Source: Ilex aquifolium
Lineage: Eukaryota; Streptophyta; Magnoliopsida; Aquifoliales; Aquifoliaceae
Reading direction: 5' to 3'
DNA length: 64,000 nucleotides
Assembly (NCBI GenBank): GCA_951799425.1
Contig: OX637402.1
Coordinates: 21,031,844 to 21,095,843, forward strand
The notes under the pieces are model-generated. The model was not told where the DNA came from and did no database searches. It worked only from the letters and a program-made list of their open reading frames with translations. Below are positions 11,713-24,728 of the stretch, in pieces (position 1 is the stretch's first letter; every line of letters starts with the position of its first letter). The position numbers and the translations under genes were made by a program.

Positions 11713-12867
11713 GCAATTTTACCACATCCGTCTTAATTGTTTTAATTCATACAACGATCGTTGAAGTTTAATAAAATACAACTTTCGGGGTTGTGAATTA
11801 TATATACTTCTAACTTTTTGAATCCTTCAAGGATTCACATGTATATCTTATTGTCTAATGAGTCATACAAATACGCAAGAATTACGTCCATTAAGTGTAT
11901 CTCCAGTCTTTTAGAGACTGTAAGAACTATCAAAAAGTTGAAAATGATAATGTTCATTACGGGAGAATACATCTCCTTGTAATTAATACCAGATTTTTAC
12001 GAGAAATCTTGTGTCACAAGTCATGCCTTAAACCACACAATTTCATAAAATATGTTCGGCAAATCGCCGTCATTATTAGCGGTTGATCATACGTACACCA
12101 AATTTTCAATATCTTCATTTAATTTTGCGTGTGAATTTTAAAATCACATAAAGATATTTATCTCTTTAATCATGTGTATATATATGTTGTAAAATACAAA
12201 CTATAGAAAGTAAATTTTTATGGCTTCTGAAATAAATTTCTTTCAAATTCTTCTTTATTTTCTCTTTTATATTCTAATTTGCTATATAGTGATAACTTTC
12301 TTTTTCCTTTATATAATTAAATATTACTGCGGTCATGATTCTTACAAATTTATTTGATGTAATCTTATTGAAGAGTTGTTTATAATTTATTTTTATTTGT
12401 ATTCTGACAAGTGACTACTACTTCTTGTAAACTTGTATCATTAATAAAAGTTATTATGTATTTATATTGCCTATTTATAAATCTTCTAGAAAAATTTTGG
12501 GTTGAAAATAAACATTTTAAAAATTAAGAGACCTAACCAGTACTCATTATAAGATAAGAGATCAAAGTATAAAATTTATTAGATTAAACCTACTACAACC
12601 TTTCAACTCTCTACAAGCGTGGTATCAATCTCTAAAGTCATCCTTAAATAATTTTTGGCTTCAAAACAATTATTTTTCATACAGATTAAGTACAAAATTT
12701 ATTATTATTACAATTACTAGATAAATATTCAAATCGGTGACCTCCACTCACTCAAGGTGGAGTTAACCATCTCGAATAGACCTATCGATTTGAACAAATC
12801 CAACAATATATATATATTTAGTTAGTTAGAAAAATACTTCATGCAACAATTAAATTCTCAAGTGATG
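11713..12867. other. AT-rich intergenic DNA
   Basis: Very AT-rich with frequent stops in all frames. I see no gene, RNA or clear element. Confidence 0.5.
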
Positions 12868-12889
12868 ACTACAACAAAAATCGTTTTTT

Positions 12890-13668
12890 GCGACGATTTT
12901 TTTCGTCGCTAAATTCAAAAAAATCGTCGCAAATTATTTTTTGCGACGTTTTTTTTTCGTCGCGTGTTCGTCGCAATAGCCTCGTCGCAGAAAGTATTTT
13001 GCGACGCAAATTTATTTTTATCGCAAAAAAAAATTTTAGCGACGAAAAAAAAACGTCGCTAAAAGTAAAAAAATCGTCGCCAATAAATTATTACATAAAT
13101 AAAAAATTTTAAAAAAATAATTTAATTAATTTTTAGCGACGAAAAAAAAACGTCGCTAAAAGTAAAAAAATCGTCGCCAATAAATTAGTACATAAATAAA
13201 AAATTTTAAAAAAATAATTTAATTAATTTTTCGCGACGTAAAAAAGTCGTCGCAAATAAATTTTTCGTAAATAAAAAATTTTTAAAAAATAATTTAATTA
13301 ATTTTTCGCGACGTAAAAAAATCGTCGCAAATAAATTTTTCGTAAATAAAAAATTTTAAAAAAATAATTTAATTAATTTTTCGCGACGGAAAATAATCGT
13401 CGCAAATAAATTTTTCGTAAATAAAAAATTATAAAAAAATAATTTAATTAATTTTTCGCGACGTAAAAAAATCGTCGCAAATAAATTTTTCGTAAATAAA
13501 AAATTTTAAAAAAATAATTTAATTAATTTTTCGCGACGTAAAAAAATCGTCGCAAATAAATTTTTAGTAAATAAAAAATTTTAAAAAAATAATTTAATTA
13601 ATTTATCGCGACGTAAAATAATCGTCGCAAATAATTTTTTAAATAAATAAAAAATACAAAAATTAATA
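12890..13668 (+). repeat. Left subterminal tandem array of GCGACG hairpin units
   Basis: Each unit has GCGACG, a short A/T spacer, then CGTCGC, so each can fold as a small hairpin. A roughly 40-bp AT linker follows. From 13232 the CGCGACG words fall at 13232, 13307, 13382, 13457, 13532 and 13607, an exact 75-bp period. Two larger units of about 97 bp precede them. The array is the inverted counterpart of the right array. Confidence 0.9.
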
Positions 13669-14288
13669 ATTAATACTCATTTACAAGCCAAGTCTTGAAT
13701 GCACTTTGGTGTACTCGGTGTTTCAATATTTTTTTTTTTTTTTAAACATAAATTTTATTTCCAAAAAGAATGAATTACAAGAATCAAAGAACAACCTGTT
13801 TTAAAAATTACAAAACAAGACTTTAATCCTTCATGAGGACTTAAGCCATTTTTGATTACATTTTGTGCAAAAAATGTCTTGACCAGATCCTGATACATCA
13901 CCATCCCTTCAACTTCTGGCCCTTGGATCACAAATCACCATCCTTTGCATCCTACAAAAACAAAGGAAGCCATGGAACTAAATATATGGCAAAGATGATA
14001 GTTTAATTAACAAATAATCTCTATGATATATAACCCATATACCTCCATAACCAAATATAAAGACAGAGAAAACAAATGGCATAATAACACCAATGTGGCC
14101 CACAAGCAGTTATCTAAACAATCTCACATGTTTGATCTGCCAAGAAGGAAATAACTTGACATGCCCCTTTCCTGGCAACGGTGTTATCCACCACTTGGGA
14201 GAAACCAAATCCAAACTTAAACCAAGAACATAGAATAATGATAAGCTGATTAACCAGAGAAAAATCATAACATTTTGAAAGCACTCAC
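13669..14288 (-). other. Captured sequence, possible 3' UTR/terminal exon
   Basis: On the minus strand TTTTTTGTAG (an acceptor-like site near 13950) is followed by a short frame reading DAKDGDL and a stop, then non-coding sequence. This could be a captured last exon plus 3' UTR, but I cannot name the parent gene. Confidence 0.3.
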
Positions 14289-14389
14289 CATCAAAAAATC
14301 ATCTTGAAATTTTTCCGATTCAATGGCTGGTAATCTTCTCAAGAGACTAGACACTTGTCTTAGCAATGAATTCTCGCAAGGAATTTCAC
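14289..14389 (-). pseudogene. CSN6: Captured COP9 signalosome subunit 6 (CSN6)-like exon
   Basis: A 101-bp exon-like piece is bounded by an acceptor (CTGCAG) above 14389 and a donor (GTGAGT) below 14289. With two leading bases it encodes 33 codons reading EIPCENSLLRQVSSLLRRL, then PAIESEKFQDDFLM, with no stop. As I remember the family, this matches the C-terminal region of plant CSN6, the MPN-domain (non-catalytic) subunit of the COP9 signalosome that removes NEDD8 from cullins. Only this exon is visible; the MPN domain is absent, so it is a fragment. It lies inside the 11.2-kb element, downstream (on the minus strand) of the DEG2-like exons. Confidence 0.65.
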
Positions 14390-15300
14390 CTGCAGTTACA
14401 GATCTAGTAAGTTTTTACAGTTTGGATCTTCTTACCCATGTTGTCCAATGCAGTTGATAACTTAGGTTGCCTAACTTACTGACCAATGCAACCTTGCAGA
14501 CACTCAAATCAGAAGCATAGTCTCATTCAGGGAGCAGTAAGTACATGCGGCCACATGCCAAATTGTTGATTTGATGAGTAGATGCCGAAATCAAACAATT
14601 GAAGAAAACTCCCAACAAAAGTATAGCTATGAGGGTTACCAGTAAATTAACACAAATCCAATACCTGCACAGAAGTTTTATTTCTAATTTCTGACAGCTG
14701 TTTCTTTGTTTATGTTATTATTGCTCAGAAAACACTTTTCTCATACTTTTTATCCAAATAACGTTGCCCATCAACAAAATAAAAACACATACCCTTTTGC
14801 ATAGCAAGAAGATAGTGGTGAAGCACTCTAATCCTGCTATTCAGCATCTTGATGGCACTATGTCATTGACTAATTATTGTAGAAACTGAATTGAACCATA
14901 CCTAGAGATTAAGGACCAAGCTAACTTAACTGAAAAATCCCCAAAATTTGTATATACTATTCAATTCACAAATTCCACAATCTGGCAATACATTAGACCC
15001 AAAACTCCCAAAAAAGTCAAGTGGAGATATGCATATAAGAACGAGCATTGAGAAAAGTGAGGCAAAATCCTAATAGCATTAACCAATGTCTGGCAATTTC
15101 GAGAATTGGAGTGTCAGGCAGAAACCAATTTTTTTGTGGTGAGAGGAGCGAGAAGAGGGGGTTGGAGAGTAGGGGTGTTAAGGCATAACAAAACCCAAGG
15201 CATTGTATTTGTGTAAAGGCTACATGTGCAAGTGAATCGCAAAGCTTGGTAGCACCAATGCTCGCTTCTCATATAACTGAATGGAAAGCCGTGCACCTAC
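14390..15300. other. Captured intron-like sequence
   Basis: Moderate complexity, unlike the surrounding arrays. No exon that I recognise. The exon expected after 15301 in a DEG2 gene was looked for and not found. Confidence 0.35.
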
Positions 15301-16547
15301 CTGTGATAGGATCACAATCTGTTCTCCTTCAAACCTTGCCAAAGAGTAGCGTGCCTTCGCCAATAGTTTTAACTAAACCAAAAGAGAACTAGTTAACTTT
15401 AGAATATACATAAATCAACTGGGTCACACAAGACCCATTGGAAGTATCATGTTAATAGATATCATCAAGTAACTCGACTTACCCCTATGCTATCTTCGCA
15501 CTCCTCACTACCAGCATAAAAACACTATTTTAATATGATGAGTAGAAATTGCTACATAATAAATAAAATTCGGCAATAATTTCACCATTGCTAAGCACAA
15601 AAATTTTGCAACATACTCTATTAGTGGTTCTGACAGAGGCGTAAATACCAATCCAGCGACTATCAAATAAGAAGGCTGCCCTCCTTCAATATGATATGGG
15701 ACCTCGAGGAAAAGAACAAAATGGATACAAATTCAGTATTCATAGAGGGGATCACAAAACAAGAAGGAAAGTTATTAAGATTCATGTCATCACAAAAAAA
15801 TTACTGTTAGCATACCAAATCTACCCGTGGATTTAATATCGCTTGAACTTTCATGAAATCCCCTGCTCTAATGATACCAAGCTCTGTAACATCACCTGCA
15901 AATCTGGACTAGAATATCCTTAGATCTAAGATAATATTCAAATTCTTCTTCAAAATGGAAAAACACATCGTTTATGGACTATGGGAAAAAATAATTCATA
16001 GAGTATGGGAACACTGTGCATGCACCTATTCAAACTTCAGCCTAAAAGAAGAAACAGCCTATTAGGAAGCATACTGTGCATTATCGTACAGATTACTCTC
16101 AAAAGGCATCAATGCTAAATGTAAAAGCAAGCCAAGCAAATAACTAGACAAAAAACCAAACTTGAATACAAGAACAAACTTGACTGCAGGGGCTAGCCCA
16201 GTCCACACATGACATTATTTAAGGTCCTCTGTAGTAGAACATTTAAGCAGTATCATATAAATAACTGTACAACAAAAGCAACTAGTATTATTCAATGGTA
16301 TACACTCTTGAGTTCCCAGGAAAGCATAAACATGTAATGCACAAAATATTGCCCACTGTATAATTTCATTGTACAAGGGTTGAACAGTGCAGGATTTACT
16401 TGAAAATGCGCAGTACAAATTTCAAATTCAATAAGAAACTTACTTTTGACTTATGAGGTAGCGAAATGCAATACGTTCGGTCGATCGGAATGGGACAGTC
16501 CCTTCACACCCCACATGAACTCCATCAAAGCTTACAATCACGTCCCC
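15301..16547 (-). pseudogene. DEG2: Captured DEG2-like chloroplast protease fragment, five exons
   Basis: Five exon pieces with GT-AG borders lie in the right order on the minus strand. 16444-16547: [20 protein letters not shown] and onward. 15816-15903: FAGDVTELGIIRAGDF and onward. 15618-15702: VPYHIEGGQPSYLIVAGLVF region. 15483-15507: EECEDSIG. 15301-15372: LKLLAKARYSLARFEGEQIV and onward. These match the PDZ1-to-PDZ2 region of DEG2, a stromal-side HtrA/Deg serine protease linked to photosystem II D1 turnover. The trypsin-like protease domain and the C-terminus are missing, so no protease can be made. Splice phases fit across the joins, but the third piece is 85 bp, one base short of its expected phase, suggesting a 1-base loss. 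Introns are kept, so genomic DNA rather than mRNA was captured. Confidence 0.85.
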
Positions 16548-17828
16548 CTAAAAAAGCATGAAATTTACAAGTATTATTTCACCGGTGAAAGAATTGCTAT
16601 TTCCAAATAACACAATTAACAGTTCGCTGGTCTCAGATTTTCTAAGCGGAATATATGCTCCCGCCATTCTTATTGTGAGTGATGAACTTCAAGTTTTGAC
16701 AGGTTATAGGCAGTTACCTTATCACTGAACTGACTTTTCTTCCAGTGTAAAGATAAGTAAGGTTCAAGTTCGAGTGTGATTTGGAGAGGATCTCTCTCAA
16801 TTCCGACGAACTTGATATTTAGCATGCAAACTGGCATAGTAAGTTTGTTGAATGGAAGCATAAAATGGTTCAAACGATGCGTTTCACATAGTTTGCTGGG
16901 GTTTTAAGTTTTTTACTTTTACACATTATCAATCTTGCCTCTGTATTATATGGTGAACCGTGAACCTCAAATGAATTTTGGTGTTCTTTGCCTTGTCAGC
17001 TAGCTGTAAAATCTTGGGCTTATAGCTTTTTGTTGGAAAGTTATGTTATTTTTCCAAAAACTAACATTTTCAAATGAGCCCATAACAAATCTAATTTTTG
17101 CATGCAGAACATCAAACCATCAGTAAACTGAGCATCTTTAAAATTAGGATGTTAAGGATATAGATGGGCAGACCCAGAAGAGTGACTTGCATTCATTAGA
17201 AGGTGGGGTGGGCTTAAAGGTTGCAATCCAAAGGGGCAAGTTGTGGGAGAACCATTTACAATGGTCCAATATACTCATATGCAAAAGGAGTCCAAGAAAA
17301 CGACTCAACTTAGAATGGTGAACAGAGATAGAGCATATTTGGCACCTCAAGTGCATCCATTTGGTAGGAGAGGGCCTTATCTTTCACGAGCAAACGATAC
17401 ATAAGTATCAAGGCACTCATGCAAATATGAGGGCCTATAAAAAAGCAGAATGAACCTCAAAATCAATATGTCCCCATGATGATCATTAATTATATACAAA
17501 GAAAAAGGGGAAGACCAAAATTAATATGGAGTAAGATAGTTTAGAAAGCAATGGTACCTTGTAATTTAACAAGGCATATAACCATTGACTGACTAGATGG
17601 TGAAAGAGAATTCACTTGTAATTTATGAGAAATGTACTTGTTGTAACTGAGCAACCAAGGCCTTTTAACAGCGGCCAAAATGCTTTCTACATTGTTGAAA
17701 GCCTGACGCTCATCCATAGCCAAAAAATGACAGTCACTATCTGAGTGGATAAAATATTTTACCAGTAGCAATTGGAAAACCGGTAAACAAATAATCGGCA
17801 TTATTGGTTAGTTCAAAAAAAGGAATAC
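16548..17828. other. Captured or filler sequence, no recognised exon
   Basis: The upstream DEG2 exons were looked for and not seen. Minus-strand open frames at 16670-16873, 17144-17356 and 17541-17801 show no family resemblance or good splice borders. Confidence 0.35.
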
Positions 17829-17938
17829 CATTTTTGGAGGGAAATCTAGGCCTGTTGAAGGATCTCTAGCGAAGCTATCCTGAACAGACTTCGTCACTGC
17901 ATTCTTATTAGGATAAAGGCACCAGACATTGTTTTTCC
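17829..17938 (-). pseudogene. Unidentified captured exon (KNNVWCLYPNKNAVTK)
   Basis: A 110-bp piece with an acceptor (TTTTCAG) above and a donor (ATG|GTATTC) below. Two leading bases plus 36 open codons include KNNVWCLYPNKNAVTK and DPSTGLDFPPKM. Codon-like composition and clean borders suggest a real host exon. I do not recognise the gene. Confidence 0.45.
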
Positions 17939-19324
17939 CTGAAAATGATGTACAATGCAATCAGAAGCCTGCAATTCCAGAGGCTTAAATGGTTCATAGG
18001 AACAATGGCAAAAAACACAAACTCAGTTCATACATTCATTAATATAAATCGCATCCTAACATCCACTTTTAAGTTACAAATGCACCCACTCTTGAATGCA
18101 AGTTCCAATATACTACAGCTTAATCATAAAGCCAATGCTACAAGTTTCTCTAACTACTCAGTTTGGTTACTTTTAATTTGGATGACCATTCCAAATATCA
18201 TTTCGCCCATTATCTGTTTCTAAAGGAAAAAGAATATTTATGATGTAGCAGGACAAGAATAAGAATTTCCAGAATTATACCATGTGCTTTACAACATCAG
18301 AAAGCCATTGTCAGTAACCCTCAGGTACAGTAAATTCTTATCTTCTCAACAGAAGAAGAAAAAATGAAGCCAAAAACAAAATTAACACTCTCTGGTCTCA
18401 GTCCCACCAATGCCATGCCAAGGGAAGTGGTCTAGGTATAGACCTGACTTCTGGCATTATCTTCCCCGAAGTGGCATTACTTAGAATGAAACAACATTCT
18501 TACACTTGATATGTTCTAACAAAGCACCTAGCAATTACCCTGCATAAGAGCTCTCATGTAGCACTGGTAGAAAAGCCGTATTAATGTGTATACACAAAAC
18601 AAGGTACCGAAGGACCATGATTTTGTTTGATATACACTTCTTTCAATAATATTTGGAATGTTTGCTAGCTCTATGCTGATATTCATTTAAGATAGGCCAT
18701 CTACACAAGATGTAATCAGTCATTTCCTACACTTGAATTTGCGATGGGATAAAACCTGTTACTTTAAAAACAGAGTTTCAAGCATTTGGAGTGAAGCCAA
18801 GTCAGGCGATCCATGTTCAACCGGAGTCGGCACGTGTTATGGGTGATATTTTAAAAACTATGAATTCTTTCATAAATACAACTAAATGCAACAAATTTTA
18901 GAAAATCTCAACAACAACAAAATATACAACTCACCAAAAATCATTACTAATCTGAAAAAGATAATAATAATAATAATTGCAGCAAATATGGCACATAAAA
19001 CTCATTTTAGTTCTTTTCGACAGTAAAGAACAAATTACAACGTGGTTCCTAGAAAATTTAATCAACTTTTGGAATCAAACTTCTGCAAATTACAATAAAT
19101 AAGAACAAAATATAGCTAGAAAATTTTAAAAACTTTTAGCACAAAATTCCTGCAAATTACAATATATATCAACAACATTTTGTAAAATACAACTGATTTA
19201 AGAATTACCAGATAGAAATTTATCACCCAAATTCATAAATTAAACATTAACAGACTAACAATAGATAAAGAGACCCACCCCACACACGGAAGAGAAAAAA
19301 CTGAAATGGGGTTGAATCGTTTAC
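17939..19324. other. AT-rich captured or filler sequence
   Basis: No exon recognised. A short plus-strand frame near 18780-18850 (reading AFGVKPSQAIHVQPESARVM) is intriguing, but I could not assign it or find its borders. Confidence 0.3.
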
Positions 19325-19404
19325 CTGGAGTTTGCCATGATTGCTTCCAAAACTCATCTGGGCATTTGTCTCTCTCTCCAAAACCTTCAAGTCCTCAACA
19401 ATCT
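19325..19404 (-). pseudogene. Unidentified captured exon (EIVEDLKVLERE)
   Basis: An 80-bp piece with an acceptor (GGTTACAG) and a donor (CTCCAG|GTAAAC). It encodes IVEDLKVLERETNAQMSF and onward after two leading bases. Its phase (needs one upstream base) fits the phase in which the invertase exon above it ends, so the two could be spliced in frame. I do not recognise the parent gene. Confidence 0.45.
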
Positions 19405-19650
19405 CTGTAACCATAGAAAAGCATGCCGAAACCCTCAAAGATAGAAAGAATTCCACCCAAAGCAGCCATGAGAATCAACAAAAAGTTCAGATTAGTGTGT
19501 GTGACTGTATGTTTATATATATATATGTATGTGACTCTGTGTGTGACTGTATGTTTATTTGTACGTATGTGACTCTGTGTGTGTATATTTCTATTACTAA
19601 TAAAAAATGGGGTTGAAAAACGAAAGAGCTAATCTTTACCCATTACCTAC

Positions 19651-20062
19651 CATTCATCCAATTCTTCTCAGGTTGAAAATGGTAAGATGTTTTTTGCCAA
19701 GACAGCATAGCATTGGTCCAAGGGTAGACAGATTCACCGGAGACCTCCCGGAAAGTCTTCTCCGATACGCCCTGAGACACCCCTCTTGACGGTGGTTTCA
19801 ATGTTCCCAGTGAAACCGGCGTAGAAGGCAAAGGCTTTTGTTGATGGTCATTGACTTCATCTTGAGGTTCTGGTCTTTGGTTGACGATCAGAACTATCAA
19901 AGATAAGAGAAAGAGTACGGAGAGGAAGATACCGACGATACCCTTACATGGTCGCCGTTTATCGGCAGGAGAATCGGTGGATTCAATTTGTTCTGGTAGG
20001 GGGGTGTAAGAAGCTGCACGTTCAAGATCATTTGGGTGTGCGTAGATTGGGTAGGTGTACAT
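19651..20062 (-). pseudogene. Captured vacuolar invertase exon 1 (GH32)
   Basis: A start codon at 20060-20062 opens 137 codons plus one base, ending at donor AATG|GTAGGT. The frame has a short cytosolic N-terminus (SYTPLPEQIES), a basic patch (DKRRPCKG), one membrane anchor (IVGIFLSVLFLLSLIVLIVN), then a propeptide with RGVSQGVSEKTF. It ends YPWTNAMLSWQKTSYHFQPE, KNWMN. This is the vacuolar-sorting N-terminus of plant acid invertase. In that family exon 1 stops exactly at NWMN, before the 9-base mini-exon for DPN of the NDPNG motif. The catalytic five-blade propeller exons are not present, so the piece cannot encode an active invertase. It sits at the minus-strand 5' end of the captured cargo, with its own start codon. 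Confidence 0.88.
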
Positions 20063-20300
20063 TGTGGCCGGTGGGTGAATTCACTGTTGGTCGATTGTGG
20101 GAGACAGAGAGAGAGAGAAAAAAAAGGGGGGGGGGGGGGACTTCGCAGATGAGGGAAAAAGGGGAGAAGAGGCTGGGGCTGTGTGAAAGTTAAGGGTGAC
20201 AGAGGCTAAAGGTGGCCAGCGGCGGTGTAGTTGTCATTGTTTCAGATCGAGAGAGAGATGCAGAGTGAGAGGTAGAGGGATCGATGAAAAGGGTGGGGAT
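20063..20300 (-). promoter_or_regulatory. Possible captured invertase 5' UTR/promoter
   Basis: About 240 bp of GA-rich, non-repeat sequence lies between the invertase start codon and the right hairpin array. If capture included the transcription start, it could drive a minus-strand chimeric transcript. No TATA box is obvious, so this is inference. Confidence 0.3.
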
Positions 20301-20307
20301 TTTGCCT

Positions 20308-20680
20308 TTTCCCGACGTTTTTAGAAAACGTCGTAAAAAATAATTATATTGTTAATTTTTAAATTTTTATTTAAGGAAAAAATTACTATGAGCGACGTTT
20401 TTCGAAAACGCCGCGAAAAAATAAGTAGATTGTTATTTTTAAAATTTTTATTTACGAAAAAGGTTATTATTGGCGACGTTTTTGAAAAAACGTCGCGAAA
20501 AATAAATTACATTGTTATTTTTTAAATTTCTATTTACGAAAAAGGTAGTATTGGCGACGTTTTATAAAAACGTCGCGAAAAAATAATTGCATCAAAATTT
20601 ACAGTTCCCGCCATTTGTCCCGCCACAAAAAATTTAGGAGGGAATCACTTTTTTGCGACGATTTATAAAAACGTCGCTAA
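20308..20680. repeat. Inner GACGTTTTTN...AACGTCG hairpin modules
   Basis: Four to five modules of the type CGACGTTTTT/AAAACGTCGC with AT linkers, related to but more diverged than the outer right array. They mark the inner edge of the element's right terminal region. Confidence 0.8.
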
Positions 20681-20689
20681 TAACTAGGT

Positions 20690-22450
20690 AACATTCAATT
20701 CCCTTTCAATTTATTAAATTGACATTCAATTTCATCAAATTAACATATAATTTCATCAAATCGACTTTCAATTTCATCAAATTAACATTCATTTTATCAA
20801 ATTGACATTCAATTTCATGAAATTAACATTCAATTTAACAAATTGGCATTCAATTTACCAAATTAACATTCAATTTATTAAATGGACATTCAATTTCATC
20901 AAATTAACATGTAATTTCATCAAATCGACTTTCAATTTCATTAAATTAACATTCAATTTATCAAATTGACATTCAATTTCATCAAATTAACATTCAATTT
21001 ATTAAATTGACATTCAATTTCATCAAATTAACATGTAATTTCATCAAATCGAATTTCAATTTTATTAAATTAACATTCGATTTATCAAATTGACATTCAA
21101 TTTCATCAAATTAACATTCAATTTATGAAATGGACATTAAATTTCATCATATTAACATGTAATTTCATCAAATCGACTTTCAATTTCATTAAATTAACAT
21201 TCAATTTATCAAATTGACATTCAATTTTATCAAATTAACATTCAATTTATTAAATTGACATTCAATTTCATCAAATTAACATGTAATTTCATCAAATCGA
21301 ATTTCAATTTTATTAAATTAACATTTGATTTATCAAATTGACATTCAATTTCATCAAATTAACATTCAATTTATGAAATGGACATTAAATTTCATCATAT
21401 TAACATGTAATTTCATCAAATCGACTTTCAATTTCATTAAATTAACATTCAATTTATCAAATTGACATTCAATTTCATCAAATTCACAAGTAATTCCATC
21501 AAATCGACTTTCAATTTCAATAAATTAACATTCAATTTATCAAATTGACATTCAATTTATCAAATTGACATTCAATTTCATTAAATTAACATTCAATTTA
21601 TGAAATTGACATTCAATTTCATCAAATTAACATGTAATTTCCTCAAATCGACTTTCCATTTCATTAAATTAACATTCAATTTATCAAATTGACTTTCAAT
21701 TTCATTAAATTAACATTCATTTTATCAAATTGACATTCAATTTCATGAAATTAACATTCAATTTAACAATTTGACATTCAATTTAATCAAATAAACATTC
21801 AATTTATTAAATTGACATTCAATTTTATCAAATTAACATGTAATTTCATCAAATCGACTTTCAATTTCTTTAAATTAACATTCGATTTATCAAATTGACA
21901 TTCAATTTCATCAAATTAATATTTAATTTCTCAAATTGACATATAATTTCATCAAATTAACATGTAATTTCATCAAATCGACTTTCAATTTCATTAAATT
22001 AACATTCAATTTATCAAATTGACATTCAATTTTATCAAATTAACATTTAATTTATTAAATTGACATTCAATTTCATCAAATTAACATGTAATTTCATCAA
22101 ATCAAATTTCAATTTTATTAAATTAACATTCGATTTATCAAATTGACATTCAATTTCATCAAATTAACATTCAATTTATGAAATGGACATTAAATTTCAT
22201 CATATCAACATGTAATTTCATCAAATCGACTTTCAATTTCATTAAATTAACATTCAATTTATGAAATTAACATACAATTAAACATTTAAAGTAATCAAAT
22301 AAACTTTCAATTTCATTAAATTAACACTCAATTCATCAAATTAACATTCAAATTATCAAATTAACATTCAATTTCATCAAATTAACATGTAATTTCATCA
22401 AATCGACTTTGAATTTCATTAAATTAACATTCAAATTAACATGTGAATTA
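20690..22450 (+). repeat. AT-rich minisatellite with 124-bp higher-order unit
   Basis: Built from about 20-21-bp words such as AAATTGACATTCAATTTCATC and AAATTAACATTCAATTTATC. The marker AACATGTAATTTCATCAAAT falls at 20906, 21030, 21154, 21278 and 21402, an exact 124-bp period. Variants alternate, giving a partial 248-bp super-period. It carries no G/C hairpin words and is distinct from its neighbours. Confidence 0.9.
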
Positions 22451-22479
22451 AATTGATATTTTTTTTAATAATTGAAGTA

Positions 22480-24078
22480 AAAAGTTTATTTGTGACGATT
22501 TTAAAAAACGTCGCGAAAAATCAATTAAATTGTTATTTTTTAAAATTTTTAATTGAGGTAAAAAGTTTATTGGCGACAATTTTAAAAAACGTCGCGAAAA
22601 ATCAATTAAATTGTTATTTTTTAAAATTTTTAATTGAGGTAAAAAGTTTATTGGCGACGATTTTAAAAAACGTCGCGAAAAATCTATTAAATTTTTATTT
22701 TTTAAAAATTTTAATTGAAGTAAAAAGTTTATTGGCGACGTTTTTTGAAAACGTCGGGAAAAATCAATTAAATTTTTATTTTATAAAAATTTTAATTGAA
22801 GTAAAAAGTTTATTGGCGACGATTTTAAAAAACGTCGCGAAAAATCTATTAAATTTTTATTTTTTAAAAATTTTAATTGAAGTAAAAAGTTTATTGGCGA
22901 CGATTTTAAAAAACGTCCCCAAAAATCAATTAAATTGTTATTTTTTAAAATTTTTAATTGAGGTAAAAAGTTTATTGGCGACGATTTTAAAAAACGTCGC
23001 GAAAAATCTATTAAATTTTTATTTTATAAAAATTTTAATTGAAGTAAAAAGTTTATTGGCGACGATTTTAAAAAAAGTCGCCAAAAATCAATTAAATTGT
23101 TATTTTTTAAAATTTTTAATTGAGGTAAAAAGTTTATTGGCGACGATTTTAAGAAACGTCGTGAAAAATCTCATAAATTTTTATTTTTTAAAAATTTTAA
23201 TTGAAGTAAAAAGTTTATTGGCGACGTTTTTTGAAAACATCGGGAAAAATCAATTAAATTTTTATTTTATAAAAATTTTAATTGAAGTAAAAAGTTTATT
23301 GGCGACGATTTTAAAAAACGTCGCTAAAAATCAATTAAATTGTTATTTTTTAAAATTTTTAATTGAGGTAAAAAGTTTATTGGCGACGATTTTAAAAAAC
23401 GTCGCGAAAAATCTATTAAATTTTTATTTTTTAAAAATTTTAATTGAACTAAAAGTTTATTGGCGACGTTTTTTGAAAACGTCGCCAAAAATCAATTAAA
23501 TTGTTATTTTTTAAAATTTTTAATTGAGGTAAGAAGTTTATTGGCGACGATTTTAAAAAACGTCGCGAAAAATCTATTAAATTTTTATTTTTTAAAAATT
23601 TTAATTGAAGTAAAAAGTTTATTGGCGACGTTTTTTGAAAACGTCGCGAAAAATCAATTAAATTATTTTTGTTGAAAAAATTTTAATTGAAGTAAAAAGT
23701 TTATTGGCGACGATTTTAAAAAACGTCGCGAAAAATCAATTAAATTGTTATTTTTTAAAATTTGTAATTGAAGTAAAAAGTTTATTGGCGACGTTTTTTA
23801 AAAACGTCGCCAAAAATCAATTAAATTATTTTTTTCAAAAATTTTTAATTGCAGTAAAAAGTTAAAAACGTCGCTAAAATCAATTAAATTGTTTTTTTTT
23901 TAAATTTTTAATTGAAGTTAAAACTTTATTTGCGACGATTTTAAAAAACGTCGCTAAAAAATTGCCAAAAATTGAAATTTGCGACAAATTTAGAAAATCG
24001 TCGCTAATAGTTAACTTTTTGCGACAAATTTAAAATCGTCGCAAAAAAATCGTCGCAAAAAATGTTTTTTGTTATAGT
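22480..24078 (-). repeat. Right subterminal tandem array of GCGACG hairpin units
   Basis: About 18 units of TTGGCGACGATTTT, AAAACGTCGC and an AT linker, with an 81-bp period in the regular part (for example 22570 to 22651). Units alternate between two variants (linker ending TTGAGG or TTGAAG). The unit is the reverse complement of the left array unit. The period is divisible by three and the units lack stops in one frame, so long false reading frames appear. Confidence 0.9.
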
Positions 24079-24728
24079 TATAATTTTGTGCATTTAATAA
24101 TTTACGAGCTTTAGGTTTTACAAGTTAAATTGTGATTTTCTAGTATTACAATAATTTATAAACTTCAAGCTTGTAATTTGTGTGCAATTTACAAACTCCA
24201 GGTTTGTAATTTATGTGTCATTTCCTAGCACAATGAAATTCTTTGTACTTCAGGTACTAGATTTTTTTTTAATGTTTTTCAAGAATATAATTTTTATTAA
24301 ATCTTTATGCACTTCAGGTACAGAATTTATGTGTCTCAGACACTAATTCAAATATAATGACAATTTAAAAATATGACAATAAACACCTATATCATGTTCT
24401 CTCATTTTACCTTTTAGATATAGAATATTACTCGGTTGTGACTCAATTGGCTACTTTTCATGCTGATAACGTATTATAAAACTAAAAAATTATTTAGGTA
24501 CAAATAACTAATTCGAAAAGAAAATATAGAAAGAATACTGGAAAAAGAGACAACTTTTTGCTTCTGTATATAGTGTGTTCTTCTTCTGTCCATTTTGCAA
24601 TCCTTTTATAGGCAAATATTAAGGGATAAAGGGACAAGGGATTCAATTTGGGGTGGTCGTCCACCTCCATTACAGGTGGGGTGGTCATCCACCTATTGAA
24701 TATTTTCAAAACCAAGTAATTTGTTGTA
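24079..24728. other. AT-rich intergenic DNA
   Basis: Flank of the 11.2-kb element. The minus frame at 24494-24715 has no family resemblance. Nothing else seen. Confidence 0.45.

Follow-up and report, generated by a model that had tools for sequence, protein, structure and literature searches.

A non-autonomous CACTA transposon of Ilex aquifolium with captured pieces of several unrelated host genes

Transposons that capture gene fragments are already known, and it is the mode by which the pieces enter them that is disputed. In the sections of the published accounts that are cited here, the 5.7-kb CACTA element Tgm-Express1, in intron 2 of F3H in the soybean wp allele, contains five unrelated gene fragments (PMC1947982), and the Pack-CACTA elements of maize often hold several loci, and the greatest number of loci (PMC8903248). 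For those of Arabidopsis, capture is modelled there as the fusion of neighbouring elements (PMC13317346, PMC8903248). The stretch of Ilex aquifolium DNA analysed here (the window) is 64,000 nucleotides in length, being positions 21,031,844 to 21,095,843 of contig OX637402.1 in assembly GCA_951799425.1, and it contains at 12868–24078 an element that is very probably a Pack-CACTA, one of the non-autonomous DNA transposons of the CACTA (En/Spm) superfamily, with cargo added to it stepwise, probably by template switching. It is of a kind already known, a further Pack-CACTA from a large family in this genome. The assembly that was searched is 800 Mb in 103 contigs, of which C1 to C20 were seen, with the window on C12. 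This one assembly contains three copies of the late stage, two of the early stage, and the four source loci, and the order of capture, the junctions, and the subsequent spread are therefore directly readable.

The core of the element (13640–20300), used as a query against the genome, is present whole on both C8 and C3 at 99% identity. The cores of the window, C8, and C3 copies have 19–22 differences over about 6660 sites (0.29–0.33%), and the flanking DNA is different at each of the three places. The C8 copy is 13.4 kb and the C3 copy is 11.0 kb. The features of a Pack-TYPE element are therefore seen, in that three copies carry the same cargo and the window copy has host coding DNA and no transposase between its ends. 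The Transposase_21 matches listed in the Pfam search of the assembly do not include the window copy, and scanning the window against Rfam at gathering thresholds returned no matches. Because the same core is found on three chromosomes and the same ends are paired in 13 family copies, it is confirmed that 12868–24078 is a single mobile unit. An earlier note, made from the letters of this sequence, had proposed one large gene-capturing element with CACTA-like ends, and this stands, since other copies pair the same ends, some around this cargo and some around other cargo. That the two terminal arrays belong to independent elements, the ends never pairing around one cargo, is rejected by these 13 copies. 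The parts of the element that belong to the transposon are as follows.

12868–24078, no strand: the entire element, read as a non-autonomous Pack-CACTA (C8 and C3 copies have the same cargo, and canonical ends)
12868–12896, plus strand: 5' terminal inverted repeat, without the terminal C, there being a G at 12867 (sequence and other family ends)
13034–13655, plus strand: 5' subterminal array of 97/75-bp units with GCGACG...CGTCGC inverted repeats (Tandem Repeats Finder, TRF)
13640–13954, plus strand: family-internal transposon sequence, the final stretch ahead of the cargo (common to more than 25 places at 95–97%)
20313–20592, minus strand: short 81-bp array of subterminal type (TRF)
20705–22438, no strand: minisatellite array of 41/124/248 bp (TRF and copy comparison)
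22469–23923, minus strand: main 3' subterminal array of 81-bp units (TRF and copy alignment)
24050–24078, minus strand: 3' terminal inverted repeat, without the terminal G, there being a T at 24079 (sequence and other family ends)

The window element opens with ACTACAACAAAAATCG at 12868 and closes at 24078 with its imperfect inverse, TTGTTATAGT, the 3' terminal inverted repeat differing from the sister copies at one inner base (G to A). A canonical version of the element would span 12867–24079, from C to G. These atypical ends had led to the suggestion of an undescribed family outside CACTA, with ends ACTA...TAGT, and the window copy taken alone does agree with it, having neither the terminal C nor the terminal G and no 3-bp target duplication. 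The sister copies refute this new-family reading and leave it with next to no probability. The terminal C is present in all 17 of the other distinct 5' ends listed (18 with that of the window, which has none; a further fetched 5' end, L032, escaped the motif and is not in this count) and TAGTG is present at all eight of the 3' ends listed, so that the family has the CACTA...TAGTG ends of CACTA elements; outside these eight, the 3' end of the C2:50.01M copy is TAATG. Thirteen copies were read at both ends (the window, C8, C3, C16:17.40M, C1:52.17M, C19:4.81M, C4:38.74M, C2:36.90M, C2:50.01M, C17:19.76M, C10:15.31M, C2:41.07M, and C2:14.54M), and in 11 of these there is a perfect 3-bp target duplication, as in CACTA elements, for example gtg at the C8 copy and aat at the C3 copy, only the window copy and C2:14.54M being without it. 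The same ends are also linked to Transposase_21. The family ends are therefore canonical CACTA and the absent terminal C is a defect peculiar to the window copy among those read. A single copy can mislead in this way, the atypical ends being a local scar and not a family trait. Pack-MULEs are characterized by long terminal inverted repeats and a 9–11 bp target duplication, and this identity was rejected on finding 3-bp duplications.

The genome search with the ends that the earlier note had proposed finds the 5' end pattern with its C at 515 sites at no more than two mismatches (0 for the reversed control), a count that may take in 3'-type ends, some of which are only two bases different, and the 3'-type end pattern at 51 exact sites. 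In the literature, no paper was found for the exact family end sequence together with CACTA, which says little, and the family is not claimed to be unpublished.

At least 151 matches to Transposase_21 were found with Pfam (150 of 293 candidates scored). For seven of the 51 3'-type ends such a match lies inward at no more than 15 kb, where 0.14 would be expected by chance, all seven in the same relative strand, and none of the 51 has one on the outer side. This enrichment indicates that coding relatives exist, with the Transposase_21 (tnp2) of CACTA elements inside the same ends. One of them, at C2:41074989–41096719, has both ends and the duplication act/act, and its arrays are 80–81% (5') and about 82% (3') identical to those of the window; its transposase match is interrupted by stop codons. 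Two further C2 loci have Transpos_assoc and Transposase_21 frames, and one of them DUF4218, 9–11 kb inside a matching 5' end, the intervening sequence being unread and the far ends not found within the fetched stretch. The strand of the transposase in the coding relatives is that of most of the captured genes in the window. From these sequences, it would be a transposase from the coding relatives that acts in trans on the ends and arrays of the element, to excise and insert it.

The matched inverted ends and the inverted arrays at both sides described in the earlier note are indeed present, with TRF reporting 75-bp units 6.6 times at 13162–13655 and 81-bp units 17.2 times at 22469–23863, both made up of GCGACG...CGTCGC inverted repeats. 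The two are mutually inverse, giving the subterminal direct and inverted repeats of a CACTA element, and when the 3' array of the window is aligned in inverse orientation with the 5' array of C8, they match at about 75%. The minisatellite is 1.7 kb in the window, 4.4 kb in C8, and 2.0 kb in C3, though the cores are only about 0.3% apart. Minisatellite-related arrays are present in other members of the family as well.

Between the arrays are the captured pieces, listed here with their sources.

13952–14863, minus strand: CSN6 fragment, exons and introns (source C4:51277368–51278282; PDB, Pfam and alignment)
14860–15062, no strand: 203-bp piece, also inside another family member (C18:18804548–18804750)
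15062–16583, minus strand: DEG2 fragment, PDZ-domain exons and introns (source C19:2.62M; PDB and alignment)
16584–17053, plus strand: further segment of the DEG2 locus, 470 bp, in the opposite orientation to the source and two sister copies (alignment)
17052–18828, minus strand: fragment of a fourth, unnamed gene (source C4:45844643–45846414; alignment)
18829–19414, minus strand: upstream piece from the same C4 locus (C4:45841236–45841816; alignment)
19413–19455, minus strand: DEG2 remnant of 43 bp, marking an older DEG2/invertase junction (alignment)
19449–20086, minus strand: vacuolar invertase exon 1 with flanks, coding at 19652–20062 (source C1:58.19M)
20087–20312, no strand: segment between the invertase and the 3' arrays, partly common with C11:27.40M

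The names of the cargo genes rest on PDB and Pfam matches, which are 4fln for DEG2 (E 4.7e-12 and 1.8e-15), 9is6 (E 2.1e-11) and PF13012 (E 8.9e-7) for CSN6, and INV_N (E 3e-20) and 3ugf (E 1.1e-7) for invertase exon 1. These are the three named among the at least three unrelated host genes of the earlier note, which missed the fourth gene (17052–19414). This gene has no Pfam match over the cut-off (one at E 0.11) and PDB matches only at E 0.29 or above; its two pieces keep the order of the source, with the 2.8 kb between them absent. At the invertase source a GH32 exon (E 7.6e-84) lies downstream of exon 1, outside the captured stretch, at the CSN6 source a JAB/MPN exon (E 2.8e-10) lies upstream of the captured piece, and at the DEG2 source the end of the PDZ domain lies past it. 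An upstream DEG2 exon was also looked for, in the fetched stretch L054, where the one frame tried had no Pfam match. The sources, at C4:51.28M, C19:2.62M, C4:45.84M, and C1:58.19M, are four loci on three chromosomes, and the possibility that the parental genes sit in this same order at one locus was not borne out. The cargo differs from its sources by 1.50–2.85%. Source loci for the 203-bp piece and for 20087–20312 were looked for and not found. While the DEG2, CSN6, and invertase pieces do have their open frames on the minus strand, as had been claimed for all of the cargo, the 470-bp DEG2 piece has been inverted from its source orientation, and the cargo is therefore not entirely on this strand.

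There are five nonsynonymous and one synonymous codon differences between invertase exon 1 in the window and in its source, and the C3 copy has 8 extra bases within this exon. On this ratio and this insertion, small as the numbers are, a coding role for the exon was rejected, and the cargo is without sign of selection for coding.

Parts of the cargo are also found in other mosaics. Three copies that are 99% alike over 3 kb (L022, L023, and L024, at C19:16.48M, C13:8.51M, and C12:26.52M) contain the upstream piece of the fourth gene and, with it, part of a pectinesterase gene (in L022, PF01095 at E 4.8e-14). L022 has TCTATATAATAAAG at its left edge, which is Helitron-like. A mosaic at C11:27.40M (L019) contains invertase exon 1 and the same DEG2 remnant as the window, next to a NAM-associated domain and a sub-threshold match to a protein kinase.

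The C2:14.54M and C10:15.31M copies have CSN6, the 203-bp piece, DEG2 in source order, and invertase, without the fourth gene, and in C10:15.31M the 470-bp DEG2 piece is shortened to about 150 bp. If this arrangement is the earlier state, the 43-bp DEG2 remnant beside the invertase is explained. The first stage would then be the element with CSN6, the 203-bp piece, source-order DEG2, and invertase exon 1, as in C2:14.5M and, with its shortened DEG2, C10:15.3M. In the second stage, that of the window, C8, and C3, the 470-bp DEG2 piece would have been turned round, DEG2 would have become about 0.2 kb shorter, and the fourth gene would have contributed an insertion of 2.36 kb, and these second-stage copies appear to have spread recently.

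Different cargo lies between the same ends at C2:36.9M, C1:52.17M, and C16:17.40M, so that copies with other cargo, sought at the suggestion of the earlier note, do exist, with XH-domain exons in the first and a reverse transcriptase piece of long interspersed nuclear element (LINE) type in the second. The first (L081, C2:36900400–36907000), with tat duplications, has XH-domain frames (PF03469, 2433–3137 on the minus strand, E 2.5e-26 and 5e-20) and, at 616–924, a Vps35 match below the curated cut-off. Among the XH proteins are the IDN2/FDM factors that act in RNA-directed DNA methylation, and a transposon with pieces of an XH-type gene is worth attention. The C1:52.17M and C16:17.40M copies (L080 and L082), both with 3-bp duplications, have open frames that match each other; the reverse transcriptase piece (PF00078, E 2.8e-8) was tested in the C1 copy.

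At the eight junctions where both sources are known, which leaves out that at about 20086, the bases shared by the sources are 3, 4, 1, 0, 2, 0, 2, and 7 bp. The sum is 19 bp; random placement has a mean of 6.04 bp and reaches 19 in a fraction of 0.0004 of 5000 trials. Neither the exact core of the terminal inverted repeat nor the GCGACG/CGTCGC motif is present within 13660–20312. This excess of microhomology, and the lack of internal transposon ends, favour template switching during repair over the fusion of neighbouring elements. The cargo would have entered stepwise inside the element, most likely through break repair that copied unrelated chromosomal sites and switched between them at short matches. 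Fusion of two neighbouring CACTA copies, mobilizing the DNA between them, is a published mechanism for the superfamily in the cited sections of PMC13317346 and PMC8903248 and could account for the very first capture. It is unlikely for the cargo seen here, as the pieces derive from four loci on three chromosomes, none of the exact transposon-end motifs stands between these pieces (no search for degraded remnants of ends was made), and the second stage placed sequence within an element that was already complete.

From template switching a wider picture can be drawn, which is put forward tentatively. CACTA elements here might grow by repeated microhomology-guided template switching within elements that are mobile already, some of the cargo passing second-hand between transposons, and copies might be retired by end-clipping in failed or end-joined transposition. 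The idea of second-hand cargo comes from the presence of the upstream piece of the fourth gene in the three-copy Helitron-like mosaic and from the recurrence of the DEG2/invertase junction in the C11 mosaic.

The insertion site of the window copy is scarred, and one further feature is recognized at its edge.

12864–12867, plus strand: left edge of the scarred target site (joined flanks aligned with eight empty-site relatives)

The element interrupts an older dispersed repeat (12550–12867 and 24079–24460), relatives of which are 70–94% identical over varying lengths, with at least 40 matches to the left flank and at least 61 to the right (40 candidates scored for each). Empty sites, which the earlier note had proposed looking for, were found in part: eight of these repeat relatives are without the element, and no duplication is seen at the window copy, where gat is to the left and ata is at 24080–24082. 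The eight, with some variation, read ...CAAGTGTTGCTGG CACAATTTT..., where the window reads ...CAAGTGATG, the element, and TATAATTTT...; a ninth fetched possible empty site, L079, was left out of this alignment. From this comparison about 4 bp of target has been lost, there is no duplication, and both terminal bases, the C and the G, are missing. The window copy would have lost the terminal base at each end and the approximately 4 bp of target at or after insertion, for which end-clipping at cleavage followed by end-joining is the simplest account, and the terminal loss has probably immobilized it. For an abnormal placement of this copy, either as a trimmed excised element end-joined into a break or by cleavage at its two ends and rejoining at the same spot, the case is evenly balanced. 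The eight relatives indicate these losses despite just 9 private substitutions in about 6.66 kb of the window core, and C2:14.5M likewise has a clipped 3' end; on the other side, the ends could have mutated separately following a normal insertion, and the empty sites are diverged repeat relatives and not the allelic site, with L079 not aligned. In the early-stage C2:14.54M copy (L063, L018, and L013) the 3' end goes no further than TGTAG and only part of the 3-bp duplication is there; end damage is therefore not confined to the window copy.

Several points weigh against stepwise capture by template switching in a mobile CACTA element as the account of this locus. The divergences are not all in keeping with one simple history: the window differs from C10 and C2 by 0.66–1.34% in the CSN6, DEG2, and invertase parts and by 0.49–1.48% in the 203-bp piece, by 2.76% in the transposon's own 13660–13950 (as do C10 and C2 from each other), and by 2.16–5.74% in 20100–20310, and the larger piece of the fourth gene differs from its source by 2.15%, though it should postdate the split of the window copy from C10 and C2. 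This could reflect cargo taken up second-hand, an allele that had diverged, exchange between copies, or uneven rates. Two immediate sources are candidates for the upstream piece of the fourth gene, which is 95.6% identical to C4 (9 mismatches, 6 gaps) and, over 18860–19414, 97.8% identical to the three-copy mosaic (11 mismatches, 1 gap). The excess of microhomology leans on the single 7-bp junction, six of the eight junctions being individually unremarkable and two having no microhomology. The terminal changes in the window copy could have come from small mutations that arose independently or from errors in the assembly, and no movement by a named transposase was seen.

The comparison with known systems is made with the cited sections of each account. 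The Ilex element is like Tgm-Express1 in being a CACTA with several unrelated host gene fragments, exons and introns included, and differs in its 11.0–13.4 kb, much of which is subterminal and minisatellite arrays, in the four genes found, and in having sister copies of an earlier stage (PMC1947982). It shares with the soybean Tgmt* the CACTA ends, the 3-bp duplication, and asymmetric subterminal repeats, whereas Tgmt* is a 20.5-kb coding element (PMC2613891). CACTA elements of Chenopodium similarly have captured gene fragments and, in some, satellite arrays near one end, but those described carry transposase domains, none of which was found in the window element (PMC8978399). In animal Pack-TIRs, capture by gap filling (FoSTeST) likewise leaves short microhomology at the breakpoints, with a median of 2 bp, in multicopy elements, although this gap filling is described in animals (PMC8277862). 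The Pack-CACTA elements of Arabidopsis and maize have CACTACAA ends and coding DNA from several loci, as here, and while capture there is ascribed to neighbouring insertions, the junctions in the Ilex element suit template switching better (PMC8903248).

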